A stretch of 64,000 nt of DNA from Mugil cephalus (lineage: Eukaryota; Chordata; Actinopteri; Mugiliformes; Mugilidae). Below, one piece after another: positions 39,883-57,026 of this stretch (the first letter of the stretch is position 1; each line of letters begins with the position of its first letter). A program made the position numbers and the translations under genes. Under the pieces are notes generated by a model. It did not search any database. It was not told where the DNA came from and saw only the letters and a program-made list of their open reading frames with translations. The DNA lies in NCBI RefSeq assembly GCF_022458985.1, contig NC_061774.1, positions 16,330,197 to 16,394,196 on the forward strand, written 5' to 3'.

Positions 39883-40212
39883 ATGGCATGCGACGGTTCA
39901 CGCGCGGAGGACTTCCCGGACAAAGTGATGCCCGGAGCGGCTCCCTGCACGTGCGGCAAGGAGTGCAGGAGTCGGAGCGGCAGTGTTGTCTTCCTGGGAT
40001 TATTCCTGCTCTCGCTGTGTCTGCACGCCGTCACCCTCGTCTGCTATTTGGATCTGCGGTCCGAGTTCAAAAGGGAAATTATCCACCAGAAGCGGGACTC
40101 TATGCTGACGCTCGCAGGGAATGACCCGTCTGACCCGTCTGACCCGGTGCTGCTCCCGCCCGGACACCCGCGTCTTGACTCCGACAGTAGACCCAGCGGA
40201 GAGGCTCCTGAG
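39883..40212 (+). CDS. eda: eda exon 1: cytoplasmic tail, membrane anchor, stalk
   Basis: 110 codons from the ATG to the donor after GAG (gtaaag). Residues 35-56 are a hydrophobic anchor followed by [11 protein letters not shown], matching the YLELRSELRRE juxtamembrane stretch of mammalian EDA. A small cysteine cluster precedes the anchor (C22, C24, C28). Aspartate/proline-rich stalk sequence with a repeated DPS motif follows. The exon ends in phase 0. A long poly(A) tract starts a few bases into the intron. Confidence 0.95.
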
Positions 40213-43200
40213 GTAAAGACATTAAAAAAAAAAAAAAAAAAAAGAAAGGAAAAAAAAAAAGAAAATTCGTCTATAACTCCGCGTTGTTGTCATTCCTCTC
40301 ACACAGACTCCGTCCGTGTTCACCCAGCCTCCGTTCAGTGATCCTCGGTTCCCGCGCCTCGGTGTCAGGTTTTGCCTCCGTGCTCTTGTTATGGCATGTT
40401 TGCGGGCAACTTATTTTACAGTAGCCTCTCACGAAGTTTTTTGTCGGCTCAGTTTCCAGACAAATGTGTTTGGATTTGCGCTCCTCTCGTGCGTGATTCA
40501 GCTCACAAAGACGCACGAAGGTGTAGGCTTTAAATCTGTCACCTGGCCAAAGTCTCCTGTTCAGGTGAACACAGCCAGGCATCGGCATGTTTTAAAGAAG
40601 CTGACGGAGGCTGCGGTTCCCAATGGGGGAAACATCTCTCAGTTGACACCCGTCAACTTATAAAAATAGCTTTATTTTTCTGTAACCAGACCACATTTAA
40701 CTCCGATTGTCTTGTTTCCAGAGCCCCATCTCAACAGACAGAGGTGGATGCTCAGAAGTTAGGCAGCCTGCCCAGCTGGAATCACAGAGAGAGGGGGTCA
40801 GTCAATGTGCCGGAGCAGGTGGAGGGCAAATTAACTGGATCACCAGCAGGTGCAAAGCCCCAGGGCTGATGTAAATTCATCAGGACTTAGATGGGGCAGT
40901 TGGTACTTGGAGCAGAGCCAGCGTCGTCTCACATGTGTTTTCTTTTCTGGCAGCGGGCTGATTGAACACTCATTGCGTCGTCTGTGGCTTTGGCAGCAGC
41001 CCCTGCATTGCCACCGCCACCGCCACCGCCCGCTGCCATCACACACTCCCTAATTCCATCAGCACAAAAGGGCCCAGTGCACCTCTCAGCTTTTTTTTGC
41101 GTTGCTGGCTCAATTAGCTCATGTGTCACCGGTTGTGTAACCTTTCTGCTGAGAAAATGATCCTCCGTGTGGGGCATTGGCCGGACATTTGGTTGTGCAG
41201 AACTGTCAACTTGATAGTCACCCAGAGGAATTCAAGTCATCCGGGGCGCATGTATTCCTCGGCAGAGAAGATTAATGAGATCCATTGCTCGTGTGGGGAT
41301 TTTCTCAGTGCCATTTTCCTTCCGCGAGCTCGTCCTATTCATTTAGTCCTCTGCGAGTCCTTTGCCAAGCTTATTTTAGATAGTAGCGGTTTCCCCGGTT
41401 ATAGCCGAGTGAGATGGGCCTGGTATTCAGCCCAGATGGTGACGCTTCATGAGGTGAAAGACTGTGGCCCAGCTGTAAATATTTAAAGGCGCTGTGATGC
41501 TGTCCTAGCCAGATGTCTGCATTAAACAACTCTGATTACACATCCCACAGTTTACATAGTTGGAGAAACAGGAGCATGTGGCATTTAGATGCCGCGGCCG
41601 CACTTGTTAGCTTTTCAGCCTTATCCTTTGAAGAGTCTCTTTCGTAGGGCTAAAAAAATTGTTTATTGGATTTTTCACACAAGTCTTCATCAAAGGCTCT
41701 TCAGCAGCTTCAGTGAAATTCGATGGGATGGGCAGGTATACAGACAAGTGCAACGGAACATGAGAAGCATTAAGAAAACAAACCTGAAGAAAAGCAAATC
41801 ATGTAATGGAACAAACATTTCTACCACACTGACATCACATGAAACGCGCGAGATTTGTCATCATGTTATACCAGTGCACGAGCGCGTAACCTCTATTCAG
41901 ATTCATTTATTTTGCGCTGAGGTTGAGTTCTGTTTTGAGAGAGACAAGTGGCGTAATTTGTCGTCGTGCAGAAACACCTTCGCGAGCCTGATTGTTTTCA
42001 GCAGCGCCTGACGGTGTCGGAACAGCCTGGATAACCAGTAAAAGAAATTATAAGAAGAAATAATCGTAATTATGTTGTTTGGAGTGTCCTTGACTGAGAT
42101 TAATGGCAACACCGTGAGGGCAGGTAATGCTAATTTGACTGGAAAGAATGAAACCCAACGCATGAAACCGTGTCTTTTGTGAGTGAGTGGAAAGACAAGT
42201 GGTTATTTTTACTGCGATTAAGTGTTGACCCATGGGGAAGAAAATAGTTTTAATCAAGTGATATTGGCATTTTCTTTCAGTTTAATGCATTTTTTTTATT
42301 GCGTGTTTATCCCGTTCTCTTTTAGCCGCCACCTGCTTGTTCATAGGAAAAAAAAAAGTCAAAGGAAAATTGGCAGGTTTCATTTGCAGATACTTGCCTG
42401 ATCTGAGGAAAATGAATGTGACCGAAGATCTCGGATAAGGATCTAGGCTTTAAAAGCAGTAATGTGAGACAAGGAATTAAATAAAGGAAACCAAAGGTTA
42501 TCACACTGAGTTTGTAACAGCATAACTCCATTTGGAGCTATCTGTGCCTCTTGGGACGTCCATAAAATTCTATTTTATCTCTTCTCGGTTGTTGTCCAGT
42601 CGAAGCTGACACTTTTATATCTTCGGAGAATTAAAGTATACAGTCCGAGGATGTTTAGCAAGAGCCTTGGAAGGGAAATTCATTCATTTCTGGAATGTAG
42701 TTAAAAATTAAGCACCACTTAATATCTCACACTTCTTCAGATCCTACTAGTTGTTTCTCAACGAGAGCAGATGATCTTGGTCATTTATGATCTGGGCCCG
42801 GGAAGTGAACGAACCGCGTTCACCTCAGCAGTCACAGTTGGAATGCCCCTGAGCAAGGCAGTAAATCCCAGCTGTCCGGCAGATCTGCGTAGTTCCCAAC
42901 AATAAAAAAATCCCCTCCCAGGTGCGCACAGCGCTGCAATCTGCGTTGCGACGTAGGAGAGCGAGAGCAAGTGTCGCCCTCGCTCGGCCTGACCCCGATT
43001 CACCTGACGTCAGCGGGGCGTGATGAAAGTCAATCCCAGCTATATTTAATTGTGTTTTATTCTCGAGCCCAACATTTTTCTTTACAACCATTATATGAAA
43101 TAATTTTCTCCTCTGATGTATGCCTTCAAAGTCTCACAAAGAACAGATGCTGAAACATCTGGAGTCTAGTTAACGGCTATTAAAAAAGTCAGTTTGATGG

Positions 43201-46200
43201 GACACAAAGTCCTCTGCAGCGTACGAGCTCTGGGGCGCGTCGGGTGGGCCGTCACCCACATCCAGTTAAATTGCGACCGGGGCGTGATTAGTTAAAACAG
43301 CGGTATGATATGTAGCGAATGGAGTGAGCCCGCACGTCGGAGAGTTAAATCAGTATAGACGCATGAGTCGTAAAAAGCGCACGGAGGTAGAGACATCAGA
43401 GATACGAGGCTGCAAAGTTTTCCTTATAAGCCTGAATCGACTTGACAGACAGATGGCGTAGACGCCCAGTAAAGATTAAGTCCAGAGTCACAAACATCTA
43501 CCAAAATAATAAATTCTCGAGGCTTTTACAGCGTTCATCTAGGAATCACTTTGCCAGCGAGTGTTGCAACAATCTGAAACGTGATTGGCTGCTGACAGGC
43601 TACATTTCCCTTAGGTTGAGCTCCACAGCCTTTTGAGATGACAGTCTATGCATACTGTTATTAAATTACTGAAGCTATGGTTAAAAACACATGGCCTTCC
43701 AGAGAGCGGTGCCTGATACTGGCTGAGGGGAGGACACTCCTTTCGTATGATATTTAAGAAGAAAAACCGCTGTCGTTGAATCCAGGAGTGTGAATCACAG
43801 GAGTGTTATCAGTTCTCCAGAGTGCGCATGCCACTGAAGTTAGTAATGCTTGTACAGCGGTGATGGGCACCCGGGCCGCAACCACAGCCAAGAGCCCTCG
43901 GTTTCAACTCTTCAACTTTGTAACCTCACGCACACAACCACAGTTTAGTGGCTAATTTTCCGAGAGTCCAAGATTTGCTGCAGCCAGAATTCAGAAACAA
44001 CACCGGAGGTCTTGAACTTTTTATTTCTGTGCTCGGCTCAAAGCTTCGCGAATGTCAGAGAATTTAACTAGTTTACGCGTTGAACCTATAGGAATACAAG
44101 CTGTTGTAATGTTAAGTGTTAATAAGGCCAAAAAAAAAAGGCTTGTGATCCCAAAATTGCATATCCCCGGGGTGACTGAATTTTAGTCATATCCTCACGA
44201 AGCAACAGGGAATCGCGTCTTCTGCGCGCAACAGCAACCCCCACGCTTTGAAGACTTGAAAGCCCTCTAATTAATAGCATTTTTTCCCTTGCGCCGAAAA
44301 AAGAATGGTTTACTCAATAGTTGGCACTTGGCATACATACCAACACGTTGTCATCCTGATTTACTGTAACTCTGCGTGCCTTTGAAGGGTATGGAGGCTG
44401 TAAATGTTGTAATGAAGTGAAATGGAGCAAACAAGGGCACAAAACCATTTCTCAAAGTCGCATCGCGTAAGAACTTTTATTTAATCCGCAATACCAGCCG
44501 CACCAGTTTGGTAGTAGCCTAGTAGGCTGCTTGTTTATCTTTTGTCGCTTTGCTTGAGCTTAATCTCGGGCCAGGAATTGGCTGTTGAGTCGTGTTTGGC
44601 TGTCAGAACAGACGAAAGTGTAACGCCATATGCTTGAACATACACCAAGAATCCTTTTGAGAGGTAAAAGCCCCGTACGTGCCAACAGCTGGAGAGGAGA
44701 TGTGGAGGCACCTGCGCACCAAATGAACAGCGAGCGCCGCCGCTCGCAGGAACATCTGGAGGTCTGCGCGTCGATAAACCCCGCTCCAACACATGCTCCC
44801 CGATCGGGCTGGAATTCCCGTGCTCGTAAGGTCAGACATGGCTGGCAGCTGGTCAGGGATGTAGACTTTAACTACTTTGAGCTTGCCCAACGGGGTGTTT
44901 GACATGATACATCTCATCCCTCACCCCGGGAGGGGGGTTCCCACATCTGAGACGAGGTATAGGGGAAAAAAAAAAAAAAAACTCGAAACATAACTTTTCT
45001 TGCCTTCTTGCAGTCTTTCAGTGGATCTGCTCTAAAACCACACAAAGAGGTGCTCAGAGTTCACGCTGCTTTCAGAAGGAGGAGATGCCTTGGTGCCGTC
45101 CGGCTTTAATAACTGTGTTTACTTGATGAAAACGGGGAATATGTCGTTCTTGCACCCAACCGGGATGCAAAGGCTCACACGAAAACAAAAGGGGTCAGAG
45201 TGTCTGTCGGTAAGCTTGTCGTTCATTTCTAGCAGCTAAAAGCTAAAATATACACCTTCACTGTCTTTTGATCCACGCTAAGGTGTCGCATGTGTCACTG
45301 CTTTGGAGTCGTCAGACATCCAAACGGCAAGCAGATGTCCAGCACGGCACGAAGGTTCTCCGGCTGTCTGCCCTCAGCCAACGAGAGCCTCTGCGCGTCG
45401 CGCTCTTTACGTTATTTACGGCGACACTCCAAAGTGCGGCCGAAAGCGATCTCGCGCACTGCGAGGCTCGACGGAAAGGAGGCTCTGGGTGGTCTTTTCG
45501 TGCGCCTCGTGCCAGTTTTCTTTGTCTGTTCGGGTTCTGGGAATCCTCCAAAGACGTGATCAGAACGGGAAGACGCCGAGAAACAGTCTGCGTTTTAAAG
45601 TCCCCGGCATGAAACATTTTGTTGTCGGAGCCAGTCACGTCTTGAGCTCGTTACGGTCAGGTTAGCGCCGTCCTGGAGAGTTCATGTGAATGTAGGTCGA
45701 CCAGAACCAGTCACATAAGAACACAGGCATGCGGTTTGTCCCGCCACTCACTCGCCCATGGGAACACCCCGCCGCTGTAGCGTAGCTTTTCCTGTTTGGA
45801 GGGATGAGCTCAGACCCGCTACATCAGATCCCTTTCTTTGACACTTTCTAGCTTATTCATGCCACCACTGAATAGGGCTGGGACCAGGTGCCATATGAAT
45901 GGGTAACGCTCTCAGATTAACCACAGTTCATGTCCTCCTTTTGTATAAAAAAAGGTGAATTTTAGAGCAGTCGCGTCCAGGTGACTTGTCTCAAACGCCA
46001 GAAACGCAGACAAAAGTGTCTTGGGTTACAGGATAGGTTACAGCCCCAATGGGCCAGACAATGACTTGGCCACAAGTGAATGTGCTGGCTGACAGTGTCT
46101 CACATCTTTTCAAATGCCCCAAGTTGTCTCTGTGCAAACATTATACCCGAAGAATAGAAAGGCCACTTGAAACATGGGTTTCACTCTCAGAAACGTGTAT

Positions 46201-49200
46201 CGTTCATTCCTTTTGTTCGCTTCACGGAACTCACCTAAGGTGGTCTTCCTCGGTGCAAACAGTATTCACGGCATATATACATGTGTGTGCAGTTCAGTCC
46301 CTTTGATCGGGGACTTGAATTTTGTGTAATTTTCCGTACTTATTGGTTTATTTTATTATTTTTTTTTTATGTCCCAGCAGGAGAAGCTACTGCACAGAAA
46401 TAGCGACTTCCACGGCACAGAGGATAGCAGGGGCATAACTCAGAGATCGAAAAGAAGTCCCGGCAGGGAGTCAGAAACAGGTGCGAGAGTTTTTGTTTTT
46501 GTATTTCTCATTCTTTACCACTGTCTTTTATCTTTACGCTTTAATATAAAAAACCGCCGGCTGACACATTTAAACTGTGTTACGCTATTTTTCAAGTTCA
46601 TGTATGTTTAATTCAGTCAAAAGAAAAAGGAAACCGTTGCTCTTTGCTGCACCTGCGTCAGCCCGTTTTCTGGATTCGGCGACGGGCCGGGGCAACAACT
46701 GAGCAATGACTTCTCTAACCTTGTTTGTTTGTGGGGTTTTAGGTTCAGTGTAAGTAATTGGTTTACGGTGGGCTCAACGCTCTTAAATTTTGAAAATGTA
46801 TCGTTAATGGGTTCTCACTTTTTTGTGGAATTGATTTTTTACTGCTTTGTGCTTACTTAACAAAGCAGCTCCACCACATAATGTTGCCGGGTTTATAGAG
46901 CAAGAGTTAAACGGAATGGGACTGATTATTACTTGGATAGCAAACAAGGACAACAAGGAGTTTGGGAGGGTTTCACCAATTTGAAACAGACAGCGAAACC
47001 CGCACAGATTTCCCCCGTCTCCAAAATAATACAAGGTCCCCCAAATGTCTTTTGACAGTGAAACACTTACATACTTTCTAATCCACTTGTGTTATCGGCG
47101 AGGTTCAAGGAATCAGAACGGAGCGCATAAAAAAAAAAAGGGATCGCCGCTCAAGAACACGCACTTCTTTTCGAGAACCAGGTGGCCATTTTTTGTACGA
47201 GACTTTGATGGCTTTCATTAATTCCATTGAATTGATTTATTTTAATCAATAGCTCCGCGGCTAAAGACCATGTGGCTAATACGTCTGAATATGCTTTTGT
47301 AGTTTTTGTTTAGAATCCGAGCTATGCAAATAAAAAGAGCGGAGCCTTTGAAGCTTCACGTCTGAGTGCAACAAGTGCAGCATGATCACAAGGCATTCCA
47401 ATGTCTGTGGCGTGACACCGAATACTTGGGGGGAAGTTTAGTGATTGTGTTTAAATTAGAAGAAAAAACTCACCTTTGAGACTTTCTACATAAATCAGTA
47501 AAGTCCCGAGCCTCTAAACACTAATCATTCCCAGGTCTCTCCTCTGCTCTCAGCACACAGACAAAGGCTTTTGTAATCTCAGCCTTAGATGTGTGCTTGT
47601 GCGTGTGTGTGTGTGTGTGTGTGTCTTGTGTTTCCACATGTGTGTGTGCGTATGTGTGCGTTCTCCGCACTCCTAACGGGCACCAGATTCCAGATAGGGC
47701 TGCTCGTTAAGAGAAATCTATGCGGATGCATCCAGTCATTTAGCCAGAGGAGAAACCCTGGCCATATGTTTGAGGGGGACTCAAACTGTGAGGTTTTAAG
47801 GTTAAATGGCCTTTGTAGTTATAATGACATGGTAAACACAAGAGCGAGCGAGACGGCTTTTTTGAAAAGGATTCTTCAGCTGCACACGGAGCGTATACAC
47901 ACACACACAGATGCACACTGAGTGCATTTTGTCTTTCAAGCGCTGACATAGATGTCCCACCAACAACCCGCGCACGCACACATGGTTGTAAAGGGGAGAC
48001 ACACGCACACATGTACACACACACACTTTCATCTGCATTCTCCATCTGGGCTTAATTCAAAGAAAAGGATTTTGGCAGGATAAAGTATCTCTCTAATGAT
48101 CTTCTCCAGTTCCACTGCCTGTGAATGCTTAAGGCACTTGTTCATACAGAGGAGGTGAAACCACACTTACAAATTACTACACTACAAGATACCACAGACT
48201 GACATACCTCCACTCCAGCGTTCGGCGCGCAGCATCTGAATCTGTTGTTTTAGCCTATTTACGCCACCTGAGCGGACCGGGGCTGGATACTCGAGATGTT
48301 ATCTGAGATGATAATTGCCGAACGAGACCATTTCAAGCTTAATCACGCTGTTTTATGTTTCTTTCAGAATCGACTGGAAAGGAGAGAAGGAAAGAGAAGA
48401 AAAAAGGTATTGCAAAATTCAGCCCAAGTTTCCTTTATCGTGGTTATTGAGCAGACGGCTGCTACCTGCTGCCTGCTCTTTGGAAAAGTTTTTTTTTGAT
48501 ATACAATCCAAACCCAGCCGAAAAACAGTTCCGCTTAAAGTGGACGGCGATCTTTTAGTCGGACAGGAATCTAACTCTGCCCCTTGTCTCTGTTAATATC
48601 TCAATTTCCAATCTGCTCAGATACTATATAGATTTTTAAGCCCTGCGAAAGTAATTTCTGATTTCTGGCTTTATATAATTTTGTCCTTTTTCTCTGCACA
48701 GGGAAAAAGCGGCCGGCGCCGGGGCCCCCTGGTCCCCCCGGTCCCCCGGGGCCACAGGGGCCACCGGGCATCCCTGGAATCCCCGGTATTCCAGGAAGCA
48801 ACGTTGTGGGGCCGGCGGGACCCCCTGGACCTCCTGGGCCGCAGGGACCTCCAGGCGCTCAAGGTCCGGCAGGTATAAGACTTAAAATAGAATACGCTGA
48901 GATAACCGAGACTCCAGCCAGAAAAGTCGAAAATGAGCTGAGAGATTTGTTTCTTAGATTACAGTATTTTCCTGCATGCAGACATTTTCCCACACTAGGA
49001 GGGGGCTCAAGTTGTCAAAATTGATTAACTCATTGCCTGCACAGTGAGAGTTTCTGATTCAGGATGTCAAACATTGCGCGGAATAGCAATGACCTATTGT
49101 TAAACTATGTGAGTGTTTGTTTTGTTTTAATCATCATCTCTGCTTTGTTCCTAGGCAGTGCTAAAGGCCAGAAATTTATCATATCTCTCTCTTATTGTTG

Positions 49201-50662
49201 CAGGGGTCCCCACTGATAAAACCAAAACAAAGGAATTCCAGGTAAGAGTATGTCACCTTTTTGGAATTTAATGATATCCCACGCGGCTCCGGCTTCCCGA
49301 TTAAAACGGCTGCTCTCTTGTTTAATGTGAATCCAGATTAGTCACCAGAGATCTTTGTTTTTCAGCCCGCAGTGGTTCACTTGCAAGGGCAGGAAACAAC
49401 CATCCAAGTGAGAGAAGGTGAGTTTTCGTCCAGTTTGCTCGGTAGTTACAACCCTGTGTGAGATCCAAAACAATAAGCATCCATAATCCCTGCCAGGGCC
49501 CTTTTGTCAGACAGACGTCTGGAACCGTGCACATAGACATGCATGCAAAACCTCAGAATTACAAGAAAATAAATATAAACACTTGATTGACAGATTGTTG
49601 ACATGCAGTCTGTGTTTACTCTGGAGTATCAACATGTCAGAGTGGGTAATTTTTTATTTAACTCTGCTCTTTACTTTCCAAAGAAACCAAACATATTATA
49701 CGCAGGCTATGACTGATATTAACTGTGATCTTAAACAGGATTACAGTTGTTGCAGTAATCCTATAGGTATTACACGATTAGTATACAGCTTTAATTAGCA
49801 GCCAGACCCCACGTCGCATGCCAGCACATTCAGATTATGCTGCTGCAGGAGTGTAAGCATCATTAGCGGGTTTATATTGTGTGTCAGCCATGAGCTCTGG
49901 TTGCAGTTAGGCTGTTTATGTTGACCGTTTCCCTCTTTGTGTGTTTGTTGTGACATGTTTAGATCTGTCTCAAGGCGTCCTTAAGAACTGGAAGATGGTG
50001 TCCATCCATCACCGCGTGTTTAAAATGCACTCTCGCACTGGGCAGCTAGAGGTGCTGTTGGACGGTGTCTACTTCATATATAGTCAGGTAGAAGTGAGTA
50101 CGGTCCTTGACGTAACTCTTGAAATTTACAGTTCAGACTCAGAAGAACTGGCAGGTGTTTTTTTTTTTTCAGTTAAGGTTAACAACCCACTTGTTTTTTT
50201 TAAAACCCATAAATGTTATGAGACATATTTCTTTTCCCCCTGCCTGTCTTAAATATGAAGCTCTATAACTCATGCTCTTGTTGGCTACTCTGACACTGCA
50301 GCTGTTTTAGCTTTAAATAAGCTCTTAAATTATCATGTGGACTTGTTTTGACTACCCCATCTCAGTCTTCTGTGAATATTATGTCCCCTGTCCACCAGGT
50401 GTACTACCTCAACTTCACTGACATTGCCAGCTATGATGTGATGGTGGACTCCAACCCGTTCCTCCGCTGCACTTGCAGCATCGAGACGGGCCAGCGCAAG
50501 TTCAACACCTGCTACACGGCTGGCGTGAGCCCGCTGCGCGCCGGCCAGAAGATCTCCATACGCATAGCCCACGAGTACACACTCATCAACATGACCAACC
50601 ACACCACCTTCCTGGGAAGCGTCAGACTCGGGGAGGCTCCATCTGCTGGGCAGAACGGATAA
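39883..50662 (+). CDS. eda: Ectodysplasin A, complete 8-exon gene
   Basis: Type II membrane TNF-family ligand, shed and secreted to activate EDAR (A1 form) or XEDAR/EDA2R (A2 form) in skin appendage development. Coding exons: 39883-40212, 46381-46480, 48368-48406, 48702-48872, 49204-49241, 49366-49417, 49963-50093, 50399-50662; phases join cleanly to give 374 residues. Order seen: short cytoplasmic part, transmembrane segment about 35-56, furin-type site RSKR at 132-135, interrupted collagen Gly-X-Y domain, and TNF homology domain from about 227 to the end. Exons 6 and 7 are 52 and 131 bases, the same lengths I recall for human EDA. Human EDA-A1 is 391 residues; the difference lies mainly in the N-terminal region and stalk. 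The ATG was chosen for its strong context (A at -3, G at +4). Identity is very secure. Confidence 0.97.
40213..46380 (+). other. eda intron 1 (6.2 kb)
   Basis: Begins with interrupted poly(A) tracts (about 40,221-40,262). Contains one exon-like segment at 40722-40818 in a compatible phase and a small (CCACCG)n-like tract near 41,010-41,035. Several minus-strand and plus-strand open frames around 45.3-45.6 kb overlap each other in a GC-rich patch and show no family motif. Confidence 0.6.
46381..46480 (+). CDS. eda: eda exon 2: furin cleavage site
   Basis: 100 bases, phase 0 to 1, with acceptor cagcag and donor gtgcga. It encodes residues 111-143 including QRSKRS, a match to the furin consensus R-X-K/R-R, which is where EDA is cut to release the soluble trimer. 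The equivalent human exon (106 bases as I recall) has the same phase and carries the overlapping sites mutated in hypohidrotic ectodermal dysplasia. The rest of this exon is poorly conserved, so assignment rests on the furin site, phase and position. Confidence 0.88.
47598..48028. repeat. Opposed TG-rich and CA-rich tracts in eda intron 2
   Basis: TG-rich sequence at 47598-47660 and CA-rich sequence at 47897-48028, interrupted in both cases, within the same intron and in complementary orientation about 250-400 bases apart. Confidence 0.8.
48368..48406 (+). CDS. eda: eda exon 3: basic linker
   Basis: 39 bases, phase 1 to 1, between ctttcag and gtattg. It encodes a lysine/arginine-rich linker ([13 protein letters not shown]), as the short basic exon of mammalian EDA does just before the collagen domain. 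The human exon is 24 bases in my memory, also a multiple of three, so the frame is preserved. Confidence 0.85.
48702..48872 (+). CDS. eda: eda exon 4: collagen Gly-X-Y domain
   Basis: 171 bases, phase 1 to 1. It encodes about 15 Gly-X-Y triplets (GPP, GPQ, GIP types) broken once by GSNVVG, at the same place as the GTTVMG break in human EDA. The three consecutive GIP triplets are also shared. The domain is one triplet shorter than I recall for human (180-base exon). It bundles TNF-domain trimers into the higher-order multimers needed for signalling. GC-rich and repetitive at the DNA level. Confidence 0.95.
49204..49241 (+). CDS. eda: eda exon 5: linker to TNF domain
   Basis: 38 bases, phase 1 to 0, encoding [13 protein letters not shown] between the collagen and TNF domains. 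It occupies the place of the short human linker exon (35 bases in memory). Acceptor ttgttgcag and donor gtaaga are both strong. Confidence 0.88.
49366..49417 (+). CDS. eda: eda exon 6: start of TNF homology domain
   Basis: 52 bases, phase 0 to 1. It encodes [17 protein letters not shown], nearly identical to the first beta strand of mammalian EDA (PAVVHLQGQ...IQV). The same exon length as human and the preserved phase make this certain. Confidence 0.96.
49963..50093 (+). CDS. eda: eda exon 7: TNF domain core with A1/A2 alternative donor
   Basis: 131 bases, phase 1 to 0, encoding [10 protein letters not shown]...FIYSQVE. Two donors lie six bases apart: the distal gaa|gtgagt gives the A1 form, and the proximal cag|gtagaa removes two codons (Val-Glu) to give the A2 form. 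Position and outcome match the mammalian switch that changes receptor choice. Confidence 0.95.
50399..50662 (+). CDS. eda: eda exon 8: C-terminal TNF domain and stop
   Basis: 87 codons plus TAA, starting [14 protein letters not shown]. It has the conserved glycosylation sites NFT and NMT and the paired receptor-domain cysteines (CTCSIETG and NTCYTAG), ending [17 protein letters not shown], which aligns with FFGAIRLGEAPAS at the human C-terminus. The tail is three to four residues longer than human. Confidence 0.97.
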
Positions 50663-51877: not shown

Positions 51878-54072
51878 ATGGTTTATACTGCTTTAATATC
51901 ACTAACCGCGTTCATGTTTTGTCTTAGTCTTTTCCTGATGCACAAAGCCAGTGTTTTAGAAAATGATTTTCGCAAACTCCACGGGGACATAATTCTACAA
52001 TTAAATCAGCCACGTTCTGAGGGAGTCAATGGGAGAATGGCCAAAACAAGGGAGGTATGTCACTGATTATACAGGATGGAGTCATCTTGGACATTGTACT
52101 ACTGAGATTTATGCCATTAGTGAGTATTCAGATAGTGCTGCAATAATAAATTTAATCTTAATGCCTTGTTTTCTCTTAGGACATAAAGCCACGTGTTTTC
52201 CAAAAAGTTCAGGGTTCTGTGAAGCTATCTTCTAAGAAAGTAAAGCGGGAACAGAGCATCTCCAGAGGTTGGTTGGAGCTGTGTCCATTAGTTACGGTCT
52301 AATCTGGTAGTGAGACCAGTTAATGAAGAAAAAGTTAATAAAATGAGAGTATGATGTTTATTTCCTTCTCTTGGCAGCTCCAACATCATTTCTGCAGTTT
52401 AAAGCTAATACTAACAAACAACCAGACATAAGAGGTAAAACTAAATTCGAGTCTTTGGCTTTAGCGTTGCGCCGTCTGCCATTATTTTGAATGAATGTGT
52501 CTTGCCTTTTCCCGCAGGAAATATAACCGTGATCCCTTGGACTGTTTCTGCGCAGCAGGGAAATACAATTTCACAAAAGGAAAACAGGATTGTTGTCCAA
52601 GAAGATGGTTATTACTTGGTGTTTGGACAAGTATTGTGTCACTCTAACTTAAGCATAACTAAGTTGATATTGCGTGTGACTTGTTCCAACTTTTCGGCTA
52701 ACGCTCTACTGAAATCACAGGTTTTGTTCGAAAGTCCGAGCACGGTTATGGGTCACATCATCCAAAGCTGGGGATCCGCAGGGAGGAGAGCAACAAGGCT
52801 CTTGCGCTGCCTGCAAGAGATGCCTGATAAAACCCCTGCCAACACATGCTACACCGCAGGTCAGTGAGGCACTAATGCCGGTGGATTTAGTTTCCTTCTG
52901 ACAAAGCCAGAATGGCTGTTTCCACTCTCTGTGCTCAAGGTTGTGCCTTCACTGCTCCCGTACAGACATCTGAGTGGAATTAATCTGTTCTAACGCTTTT
53001 TAGAAAAAGCAAAAGTCGTAATATATTAAACTATTTCCTTATATCAACAGTTTTTTCTGTAATTGTGAACAAGTTTAACATTTCTCCTTCCGTAACAACC
53101 TACGGGCATTTGACTCTTGAAATTCGAAGAGTTTCATTCAAATAAATGTCCGTTAAGCCTGTAGCTAACGCTGAATAACCCACTGATGAAAGTATGGCAG
53201 GACCTACATGTCTCTTGATGTCTCTATGAACAGATCTCCCGATACAAATGTAGAACTCTAATTCATCATGAGAAGACAGAGTAGCATATGAGTTTGAAGA
53301 TTTGAAAATTTCCTACTGCTGCAACGTATTTTAATGGCAAAACTCAAATTGACATTTATTAGTAAACAGTCGCCAGAAATGTCTGGTCCGTGGGCTTGGC
53401 ACTTAACACTGTCAGTCATCAAGGGTTTATGTACAAAACAAGACAACTGCTGCTCTTTTGGCATTGTTTGCGGATCATTTTGAAATATTGTTATGACTGT
53501 TTGCGTAAGAAGAAGCAGCCACAGTGAGCTATTAGATGAGGAACTGCAGGCCTCCAAAGGAACGGGCTCCTTTCACTGTACCCTGCTGCTGGAAGATTCA
53601 TGATCCGTGCAGGGTACAGTGAGATCATATCATATTGTAGTTGTTCAAGGCTAATTATGGCCTGACCTCTTTACCAGAATGGTAGTAGTTTGTTTTCCTG
53701 CCCCCAGATGATTCTTGTGAGCTGTAGTACAAAACCGCATTTGCAACTACAGGCGTCGTTGCTTTAACCAAGAATCTTTGTCGCTTAAAGAGAAAAAAAA
53801 AGATTGGAAAAATGTAACAAATACTAGAAGAATCACCCTCAAATTATTTTCAATTGTGAGAAAATGATCTGCAACTGTGAAACACATATTTCCCTCACTT
53901 TTCCCCTCCGCATTGCATCTCTCCTGATACGATACATTATCTACCCTCTGTTACAGGAACAGTGCAGCTGTTTCAGGATGATGAATTAGAACTGGTTATC
54001 CTAGACAGGCCCAATTCCCTGATCTCCATGGACGAGGACTCGACCTTTTTCGGTGTCATACAGCTGAACTGA
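51878..54072 (+). CDS. tnfsf13b-like: BAFF/APRIL-like TNF ligand (TNFSF13B-type, possibly BALM), complete
   Basis: Type II membrane cytokine of the B-cell survival branch of the TNF superfamily. Exons: 51878-52054, 52180-52267, 52378-52434, 52518-52630, 52721-52859, 53957-54072; 229 residues. An in-frame TAA at 51845-51847 fixes the start, leaving almost no cytoplasmic tail before an anchor at about 2-22. A short coiled stalk, a basic cleavage-like site KKVKR at 78-82 and a C-terminal TNF domain follow. Diagnostic matches: YYLVFGQVLF, MGHIIQ, LLRCLQEMP, NTCYTAG, STFFGVIQLN. The loop between strands D and E is short, as in APRIL, while MGH and the C-terminus look like BAFF. In stickleback the gene beside EDA is called TNFSF13B; fish also have a third relative, BALM. 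I am sure of the family, less sure which member. Confidence 0.9.
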
Positions 54073-54919: not shown

Positions 54920-57026
54920 ATGGTCAAACATGTGCTCTCTAATCTCCTGCTACTCTGGTCACTCAGCCTTGACCTCCATAAGACCGGACAGGCACAGCAC
55001 GCTCCGAAGGTAGGTTCAAGATCAGCAAGTTAAAAGCAAGGCGTGTAAAGACAGCACAATATATTGTTTTCTTAGCTCGCAAAGTTGGTGGTTGTTTAAC
55101 TTTGGTCTCCATGGTTCCCTCTTTGATTATGATTAATGTGGCTTTCATTTGAAGGAGCAGTCCTGGAACAACCACAACCTCCTCTCTGTCCCTCTGGATT
55201 TGGATGTGAGCCTCAGAAGTCTGGACCTGTCCAATAACTTCATCAGACAGTTGCACACACTTGCTTTGCCGTACTTGGAGCAGCTGGACCTGAGCAGCAA
55301 CCAGCTGGATCTCATCTCTGAGAGGGCTTTTGAAAACTTGGCTCGACTTGAACTGTTGAATTTGTCCAGAAACGGTCTAAACAACAACCCCGGCAGTAAC
55401 AGCAAAGCCCTGCAATCCCTGAGCCGGCTGAAGAGTTTGGACCTATCAATGAACGGTCTAAATGATGCTTCGGTGGAGCTGTACCTTAAGAACAAATCGT
55501 CTCTTGATCGACTTAAGTTGAGCAGTAACGTCTTAACGAGACTGTCGCATCAGCTCTTCAAAGAGAGTAAAGGTGTGAGGGCCGTTTTTCTGGATGACAA
55601 TCTGATATCAGAGATAGAAGAGGGGACGTTTGAACCACTCAGCCAGTTAGAGACGTTGAACCTGGCCAAAAACAATCTTGTACGCATTTGTGATTTTAAG
55701 TTACATCAAGTCAAATATTTGGATCTCAGCAGAAATTCAATGGAGTTCTTTGTGACACGTGAGGACGACCACTCGTACATGTTGGAAATTCTCGATCTTA
55801 GCTACAACAAACTTCTTTACTTCCCAATCGTCCCGACCAACAACCGCCTGCGGTATCTTCATTTGCAGAATAATATGGTCGGCGCCTTGAAATCAGAGGC
55901 TGCAGCGGTGTCTGCAGTCAACTCTCTTTATAATGAGATCCTGAGTCAGAAAACAGTGAGAAAAAATAACCTGCACGCAAACTGGAGGCTAATGCCGCTC
56001 ATTTACATCGACCTGAGCTTCAACCACTTCAGGTCTTTCCCACTGGAGACACTGAGCCTCCTCACTTCTTTAGAAACTCTGAATTTCAGTAACAACTGTC
56101 TCCAAAACATCTTCTGGAATGTCAGAAATTACAGTCACACAGGACACGTCCGCCAGCTTTACTTTCAATCCTTAAAGCGCCTCGACCTGCAAAGCAACGG
56201 ACTTGCGCATGTTTCCCCGCTCTTCCTCGATGCACTCACACAAATAGAAACGTTGCATCTACAAGACAACTCGGTGCAACCCTGCGCTTTCAACTATCGC
56301 TTGGGAGGCTCTCAAAAAGCACAGCAAATAAATTCCAGCGGATCCTGCGTCACCTTTGGGCAGTTGAGGACGCTCAAACACCTCGATCTTGGAGAAAACA
56401 ACATAAAAGAACTTGAGCCAGGCGCATTTCAAAGAACGTCTTTGGTTTCTCTTAACCTTGCAAAAAATGTGCACATGGTAATGCACGAGGGGGCACTAGA
56501 AGGTGTGGAAACAACTCTTGAATCCTTGATTATCAGTGAAATAAACAGCTCTCATCTGCCTTTACCTTGTATGTCAGCGTTAACCCAACTGAACATGTCG
56601 AACAACCACCTAGACATGATACCAAGCGGTTTAAGTTGCTCTCCTCTGAGAGAACTTGATGTAAGAAATAATGTTTTTGTGACTTTAAATCATTCTTTGC
56701 TTCACGCCTTATCCTTACATCTCGCTGTGATGTTTATTAGTGGGAATCATTTCAACTGCTGTGACAGCGGATGGCTGACAGTCTTAAATGAGAAGAAGAT
56801 CAAACTGCCCGACATCAACAATACCGAGTGCTTCACAAGTGCTAGACACTTCCTCATGTCTGAATATCTAAAGGACTCCTTAGTGTATTGTTCGGTGCAC
56901 ACAAAGGCACAGGAAGTGCATTCAGGACCAATGTTCATAGTGGTTTTATTTGTAACTGTATCATTAGCACTGCTCATCGTGTTCAGTAGGAAGCTGTGCT
57001 GCACACAGAGATCATTTTTAGTGTGA
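54920..57026 (+). CDS. lrrc32-like: LRRC32 (GARP)/NRROS-family leucine-rich repeat membrane protein
   Basis: Type I membrane protein of the family that binds latent TGF-beta and presents it at the cell surface. Exon 1 (54920-55009) encodes a 30-residue signal peptide region ending QAQHAPK; exon 2 (55155-57026) encodes the rest, 653 residues in all against 662 for human GARP. About 20 leucine-rich repeats (LxxLDLSxNxL pattern) are followed by a cysteine-rich C-terminal cap (NCCDSGW...ECF...VYCS), a transmembrane helix at about 622-641 and a very short basic cytoplasmic tail. Exon 2 carrying nearly all the coding sequence fits the family. Segments such as DFKLHQVKYLDLS, NKLLYFP, NNCLQ and CCDSGWL align with GARP. 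The position beside EDA and TNFSF13B matches GARP in stickleback. The N-terminal cap lacks its usual cysteines, and the first TGF-beta-linking cysteine is displaced (see findings). Confidence 0.9.

Follow-up and report, generated by a model that had tools for sequence, protein, structure and literature searches.

Tandem alternative donors at a short in-frame distance form a general class of splice sites, and at many subtle tandem sites both forms are made without separate roles. Ectodysplasin-A (EDA) resembles this class in having two GTs a multiple of three bases apart, so that the frame is kept, and differs from it in that the residues between its donors switch receptors in mammals. According to the accessible part of a structural study, receptor binding of the human protein is decided by these two residues, Val307 and Glu308, which make no contact with EDAR in the EDA.A1-EDAR crystal structure and lengthen strand C (PMC9918506). 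With the longer strand, as described in the same text, Tyr310, Tyr311 and Tyr343 pack at the EDAR interface, and Phe314 is buried in A2 (PMC9918506).

Fish eda has already been treated in A1/A2 terms. For the threespine stickleback, the accessible text describes cloning of A1, with A2 brought up in relation to mammals (PMC3976036), and for zebrafish a vertebrate eda alignment carries a legend that marks the residues deleted in an alternative form (PMC2542418); an A2 mRNA in fish is not shown in the accessible parts of either account. A further paper leaves EDA isoforms, splicing and XEDAR or the A2 receptor unmentioned (PMC12516321). One naming of EDA2R in a fish was found in the literature, in the accessible part of a scale study of Gymnocypris that names eda2r among differential genes (PMC10837935), and the available text of another paper reports BLAST matches to EDA2R relatives in sea urchin and sea anemone (PMC13367198), so that a receptor is expected in fish. 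Given this published treatment, the tandem arrangement is itself expected in a fish, and the instance described here extends a known vertebrate splice switch to one more species.

The window, which is the whole 64,000-nucleotide stretch of Mugil cephalus DNA analysed, contains a gene of eight coding exons at 39883-50662 on the plus strand, whose splice sites were read by hand and whose translation was checked:

39883-40212, plus strand: EDA exon 1, coding part, from the start codon (splice-site reading)
46381-46480, plus strand: EDA exon 2, holding RSKRSPGR (splice-site reading)
48368-48406, plus strand: EDA exon 3 (splice-site reading)
48702-48872, plus strand: EDA exon 4, collagen repeats (splice-site reading; Pfam Collagen)
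49204-49241, plus strand: EDA exon 5 (splice-site reading)
49366-49417, plus strand: EDA exon 6 (splice-site reading)
49963-50093, plus strand: EDA exon 7 in its long (A1) version; A2, the short version, stops at 50087
50088-50093, plus strand: GTAGAA, the Val-Glu codons of A1 and the intron start of A2 (proximal donor, CAG/GTAGAA)
50094-50099, plus strand: distal (A1) donor, GAA/GTGAGT (sequence reading)
50094-50398, plus strand: EDA intron 7, A1 form, 305 bases, 3' end ccaccag
50399-50662, plus strand: EDA exon 8, coding part, to the stop codon TAA

The reading frame is full and open, with consensus-like splice signals, and encodes 374 residues in the A1 form. Exon 8 opens with GTGTACTAC at 50399, directly after ...ccaccag. 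Read by eye, the translation has a hydrophobic segment in exon 1 that would correspond to a membrane anchor and, in exon 2, the sequence RSKRSPGR, which we take to be a furin-like site. Pfam matches above cut-off are found for Collagen (residues 163-218) and, C-terminal to it, for the TNF domain. In phmmer searches of solved structures, the TNF domain matches EDA chains at 2.4e-52 to 3.9e-49, and the next best match is an APRIL-BAFF fusion at 3.2e-22. The gene is an ordinary fish EDA, and its identity as EDA had been given in the initial annotation. Published primers for stickleback Eda differ from the window EDA at both ends of the coding sequence. Elsewhere, Rfam at gathering thresholds gave no match over the whole window, eight long open reading frames (out of 33) that lie outside the described genes had no Pfam match, and a search for relatives produced 58 pattern matches in genome contigs and 6 in viral contigs, none of which was confirmed.

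Exon 7 ends in CAG (50085-50087), GTAGAA (50088-50093) and GTGAGT (50094-50099), which bears out the earlier reading of two donors six bases apart; a GT six bases upstream is found at one of the seven EDA donors. Both candidate exon ends fall between codons, and the frame is kept either way. Splicing from the distal donor gives SQVEVYY (A1, 374 residues) and from the proximal donor SQVYY (A2, 372 residues), the peptides that the annotation had derived, and the two spliced proteins differ solely in Val286-Glu287. Val-Glu thus occupies the A1-specific position and can be spliced out through the in-frame donor that lies six bases 5' of the distal one. The annotation further held that the mechanism is retained in this fish, which stands for the gene, the donor positions and the predicted peptides; as a statement about splicing it goes beyond the sequence, as the proximal GT is part of a Val codon and an A1-only gene would carry it too.

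The fish forms correspond exactly to human EDA-A1 and EDA-A2. With phmmer, the fish A1 domain aligns gap-free to human EDA-A1 (7x9g, 2.4e-52; 1rj7, 2.5e-52), and its alignment to EDA-A2 (1rj8, 3.9e-49) opens a gap of two residues precisely at Val-Glu; when the A2 peptide is the query the ranking flips, with 1rj8 first and gap-free. The domain, the site and the residues Val-Glu are the same in both species, within an identical stretch of 11 residues, and identity is 18/22 around the site and 78/126 over the aligned domain. The human switch residues Tyr310, Tyr311 and Phe314 are unchanged in the fish, whereas Ile312 is Leu. Lys340, Thr341 and Tyr343, positions named at the EDAR interface, are replaced by Gln, Arg and Phe. 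By analogy with mammals, the fish A1 and A2 products may choose receptors in the same way, although with these three differences the choice need not match the human one. The cysteines of the TNF domain (50399-50662) also differ from human, with Cys352 replaced by Ser and an additional Cys placed two residues beyond Cys332.

In the favoured explanation, which is likely, this ordinary fish EDA uses both of its overlapping in-frame exon 7 donors, yielding an EDAR-binding A1 and an EDA2R/XEDAR-binding A2. U1 would define the end of exon 7 at either of the two overlapping 5' splice sites; the distal site would keep Val-Glu in the TNF domain, within strand C, giving EDA-A1, and the proximal site would remove it, giving EDA-A2. 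Judged from the sequence, use of both donors in Mugil cephalus is likely. It is unlikely, though compatible with the splicing part of this explanation, that both forms are made but A2 lacks a role of its own in the animal, which is the case at many subtle tandem sites. The accessible literature divides on this point: EDA2R knockout mice are free of ectodermal dysplasia (PMC6325906) and a part for EDA.A2/XEDAR in ectodermal dysplasia has been called unlikely (PMC9918506), whereas the binding of human receptors hinges on the very two residues concerned (PMC9918506) and a regulatory part in ageing is ascribed to EDA2R (PMC12686597).

Two measures of donor strength were applied, a bit score from vertebrate donor base frequencies and the pairing energy with the 5' end of U1. 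By base frequencies the proximal donor (1.01 bits) is 3.2 bits weaker than the distal one (4.24 bits), while by U1 pairing it is the stronger (-8.0 versus -7.1 kcal/mol). The order of the donors depends on the measure, and the assertion in the initial annotation that the proximal donor is weaker therefore holds for base frequencies only. The six other donors of EDA score from 0.31 to 8.19 bits, and the proximal site outscores those of exon 3 (0.31) and exon 4 (0.60) but falls short of the remaining four (2.98 to 8.19); in U1 pairing it surpasses the distal donor and four further EDA donors. Among the 47 other GTs inside EDA coding exons, exon ends excluded, one matches its base-frequency score and none pairs with U1 as well, and 5.6% of the 7387 GTs on both strands of the window reach that base-frequency score. 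The two donors are near enough in strength to compete.

Because Val is always encoded by GTN, an argument for selection on splicing must rest on the free synonymous bases, here CAG against CAA, GTA or GTG against GTC or GTT, and GAA against GAG. With codon use taken from EDA and the neighbouring leucine-rich-repeat gene, CAG-GTA-GAA is expected with a probability of 0.028 (2.8%). The single GTA among the 23 Val codons of EDA is the one at the proximal donor, and with Glu encoded by GAA in place of GAG the distal donor loses 3.2 bits. These bases lean towards selection for two usable donors, without proving it, and as a sign that the proximal donor is under selection they were set aside, the signal being only mild, with 6.5% of synonymous choices scoring that site as well or better. 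It is distinctly unlikely that the distal donor alone is used, with A2 absent or noise and the proximal site a by-product of a Gln-Val-Glu needed for EDAR: the obligatory GT of Val, the retention of CAG followed by GTA or GTG in 34% of codon-weighted choices, the advantage of the distal donor in base frequencies and the lack of an A2 mRNA in the accessible fish accounts speak for such a by-product, and the proximal U1 pairing unequalled within the coding exons, the costly GAA, the solitary GTA and the alternative form marked in the zebrafish legend (PMC2542418) speak against it. Predicted RNA folding over both donors (121 bases) was no better than that of shuffled sequence (z 0.27), since 114 of 200 shuffles folded equally well or better.

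A third GT lies upstream within exon 7:

50052-50053, plus strand: upstream GT, 42 bases 5' of the distal donor, weak (-1.03 bits, U1 -5.4)

In a human minigene study with the donor at c.924, the variant c.924+7A>G shortened exon 7 by 42 bases, and splicing of the wild-type exon 7 minigene is given as normal, data not shown, with the two forms unmentioned in the accessible text (PMC9339965). The GT at 50052 is at the same distance as the donor used by that variant; the fish base at +7 of the distal donor is A.

Downstream of EDA and in the same orientation is a TNF-ligand gene (52518-54069) that matches BAFF and APRIL, with the exon at 52518 starting about 1.86 kb past the EDA stop codon:

52518-52630, plus strand: BALM-like exon, ending ...GYYLVFGQ at CAA/gtattg
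52631-52720, plus strand: BALM-like intron of 90 bases, phase 0, between Gln and Val (inferred from protein homology)
52721-52859, plus strand: next BALM-like exon, VLFESP...CYTA (protein homology)

In view of the BAFF/APRIL matches and the published linkage of EDA and BALM (PMC5316386), this neighbour is probably BALM. In the accessible text of that work, EDA is named as the nearest known outgroup to BAFF, APRIL and BALM, and synteny is cited in favour of a linkage between EDA and BALM in the ancestor of jawed vertebrates (PMC5316386); BALM is described elsewhere, in a source seen in part, as absent from tetrapods and zebrafish (PMC6001812). The BALM intron, as placed by homology, coincides in position with the proximal (A2) donor of EDA, and its donor CAA/GTATTG is weak (-2.72 bits, U1 -3.4). 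The 90-base intron keeps the reading frame and contains no stop codon, so that its retention would add 30 residues.

The position of this intron raises the matter of which EDA form came first. The A1 (160 residues) and A2 (158 residues) peptides, of the same extent, were compared with solved structures at E up to 10 (41 matching sequences for A1; the best 60 of 61 for A2). By hand count, 34 distinct non-EDA TNF-family sequences are common to both lists, many of them the same ligand and not independent; A2 scores higher than A1 for 28 of them (two by 0.1 bit), equal for 2 and lower for 4. Higher scores for A2 are seen with ‘Protein eiger’ (6zt0, 40.2 versus 34.3; 6i50, 35.4 versus 30.2), to which A2 aligns gap-free through the site, and with BAFF, TRAIL and RANKL; GITRL is nearly equal, and the lower scores are with APRIL (two sequences, 38.5 versus 40.1), lymphotoxin-alpha (7dov, 13.2 versus 15.6) and LIGHT (4kg8, 11.9 versus 13.0). 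TWEAK, FasL, TL1A and TNF are matched by A2 only among the matches listed, as are amicyanins, which are not TNF ligands, and the weak end of the match list is accordingly noise. Members 6, 14, 18, 12 and 11 are taken here to be FasL, LIGHT, GITRL, TWEAK and RANKL, respectively. Pfam TNF likewise scores A2 at 42.6 bits and A1 at 39.3 bits. MAFFT alignments of BALM, BAFF and APRIL with A1 or A2 were also tried and rejected as evidence, since both forms were gap-free at QV and no decision followed.

The scores suggest that the A2 length is ancestral and that Val-Glu was added by a six-base move of the donor into the intron. On this view the ancestral exon stopped where the proximal donor lies, a state that BALM seems to have kept (Gln/Val, phase 0). 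An intronic GT recruited as a second donor would then have turned the first six intron bases into Val-Glu, extending strand C and producing the EDAR-binding surface. That EDA-A2 is ancestral and EDA-A1 derived is put forward tentatively, with somewhat less than even confidence, because the closely related APRIL scores better with A1 and the MAFFT alignment gave no decision. If correct, it would account for why two donors overlap at all, the EDAR-binding form would have arisen after EDA split from BAFF/APRIL/BALM, and the pathway's skin-appendage branch would owe its origin to a splice-site shift of six bases. The idea was not found among the titles and abstract openings listed for related literature, although a related remark is possible in an Eiger structure paper whose accessible text mentions both EDA forms (PMC6684607). 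Word searches for intron positions found no introns or splicing in PMC7674686, no introns or exons in PMC11762692 and no introns in PMC5316386. This proposed ancestry of the two forms is the less expected part of the analysis and the one worth follow-up.

Further downstream, 55137-57026 is a single long open reading frame whose best match is LRRC32/GARP (6.1e-69), followed by LRRC33 (7.2e-48). The order EDA, BALM and GARP-like gene resembles that of the stickleback Eda region.
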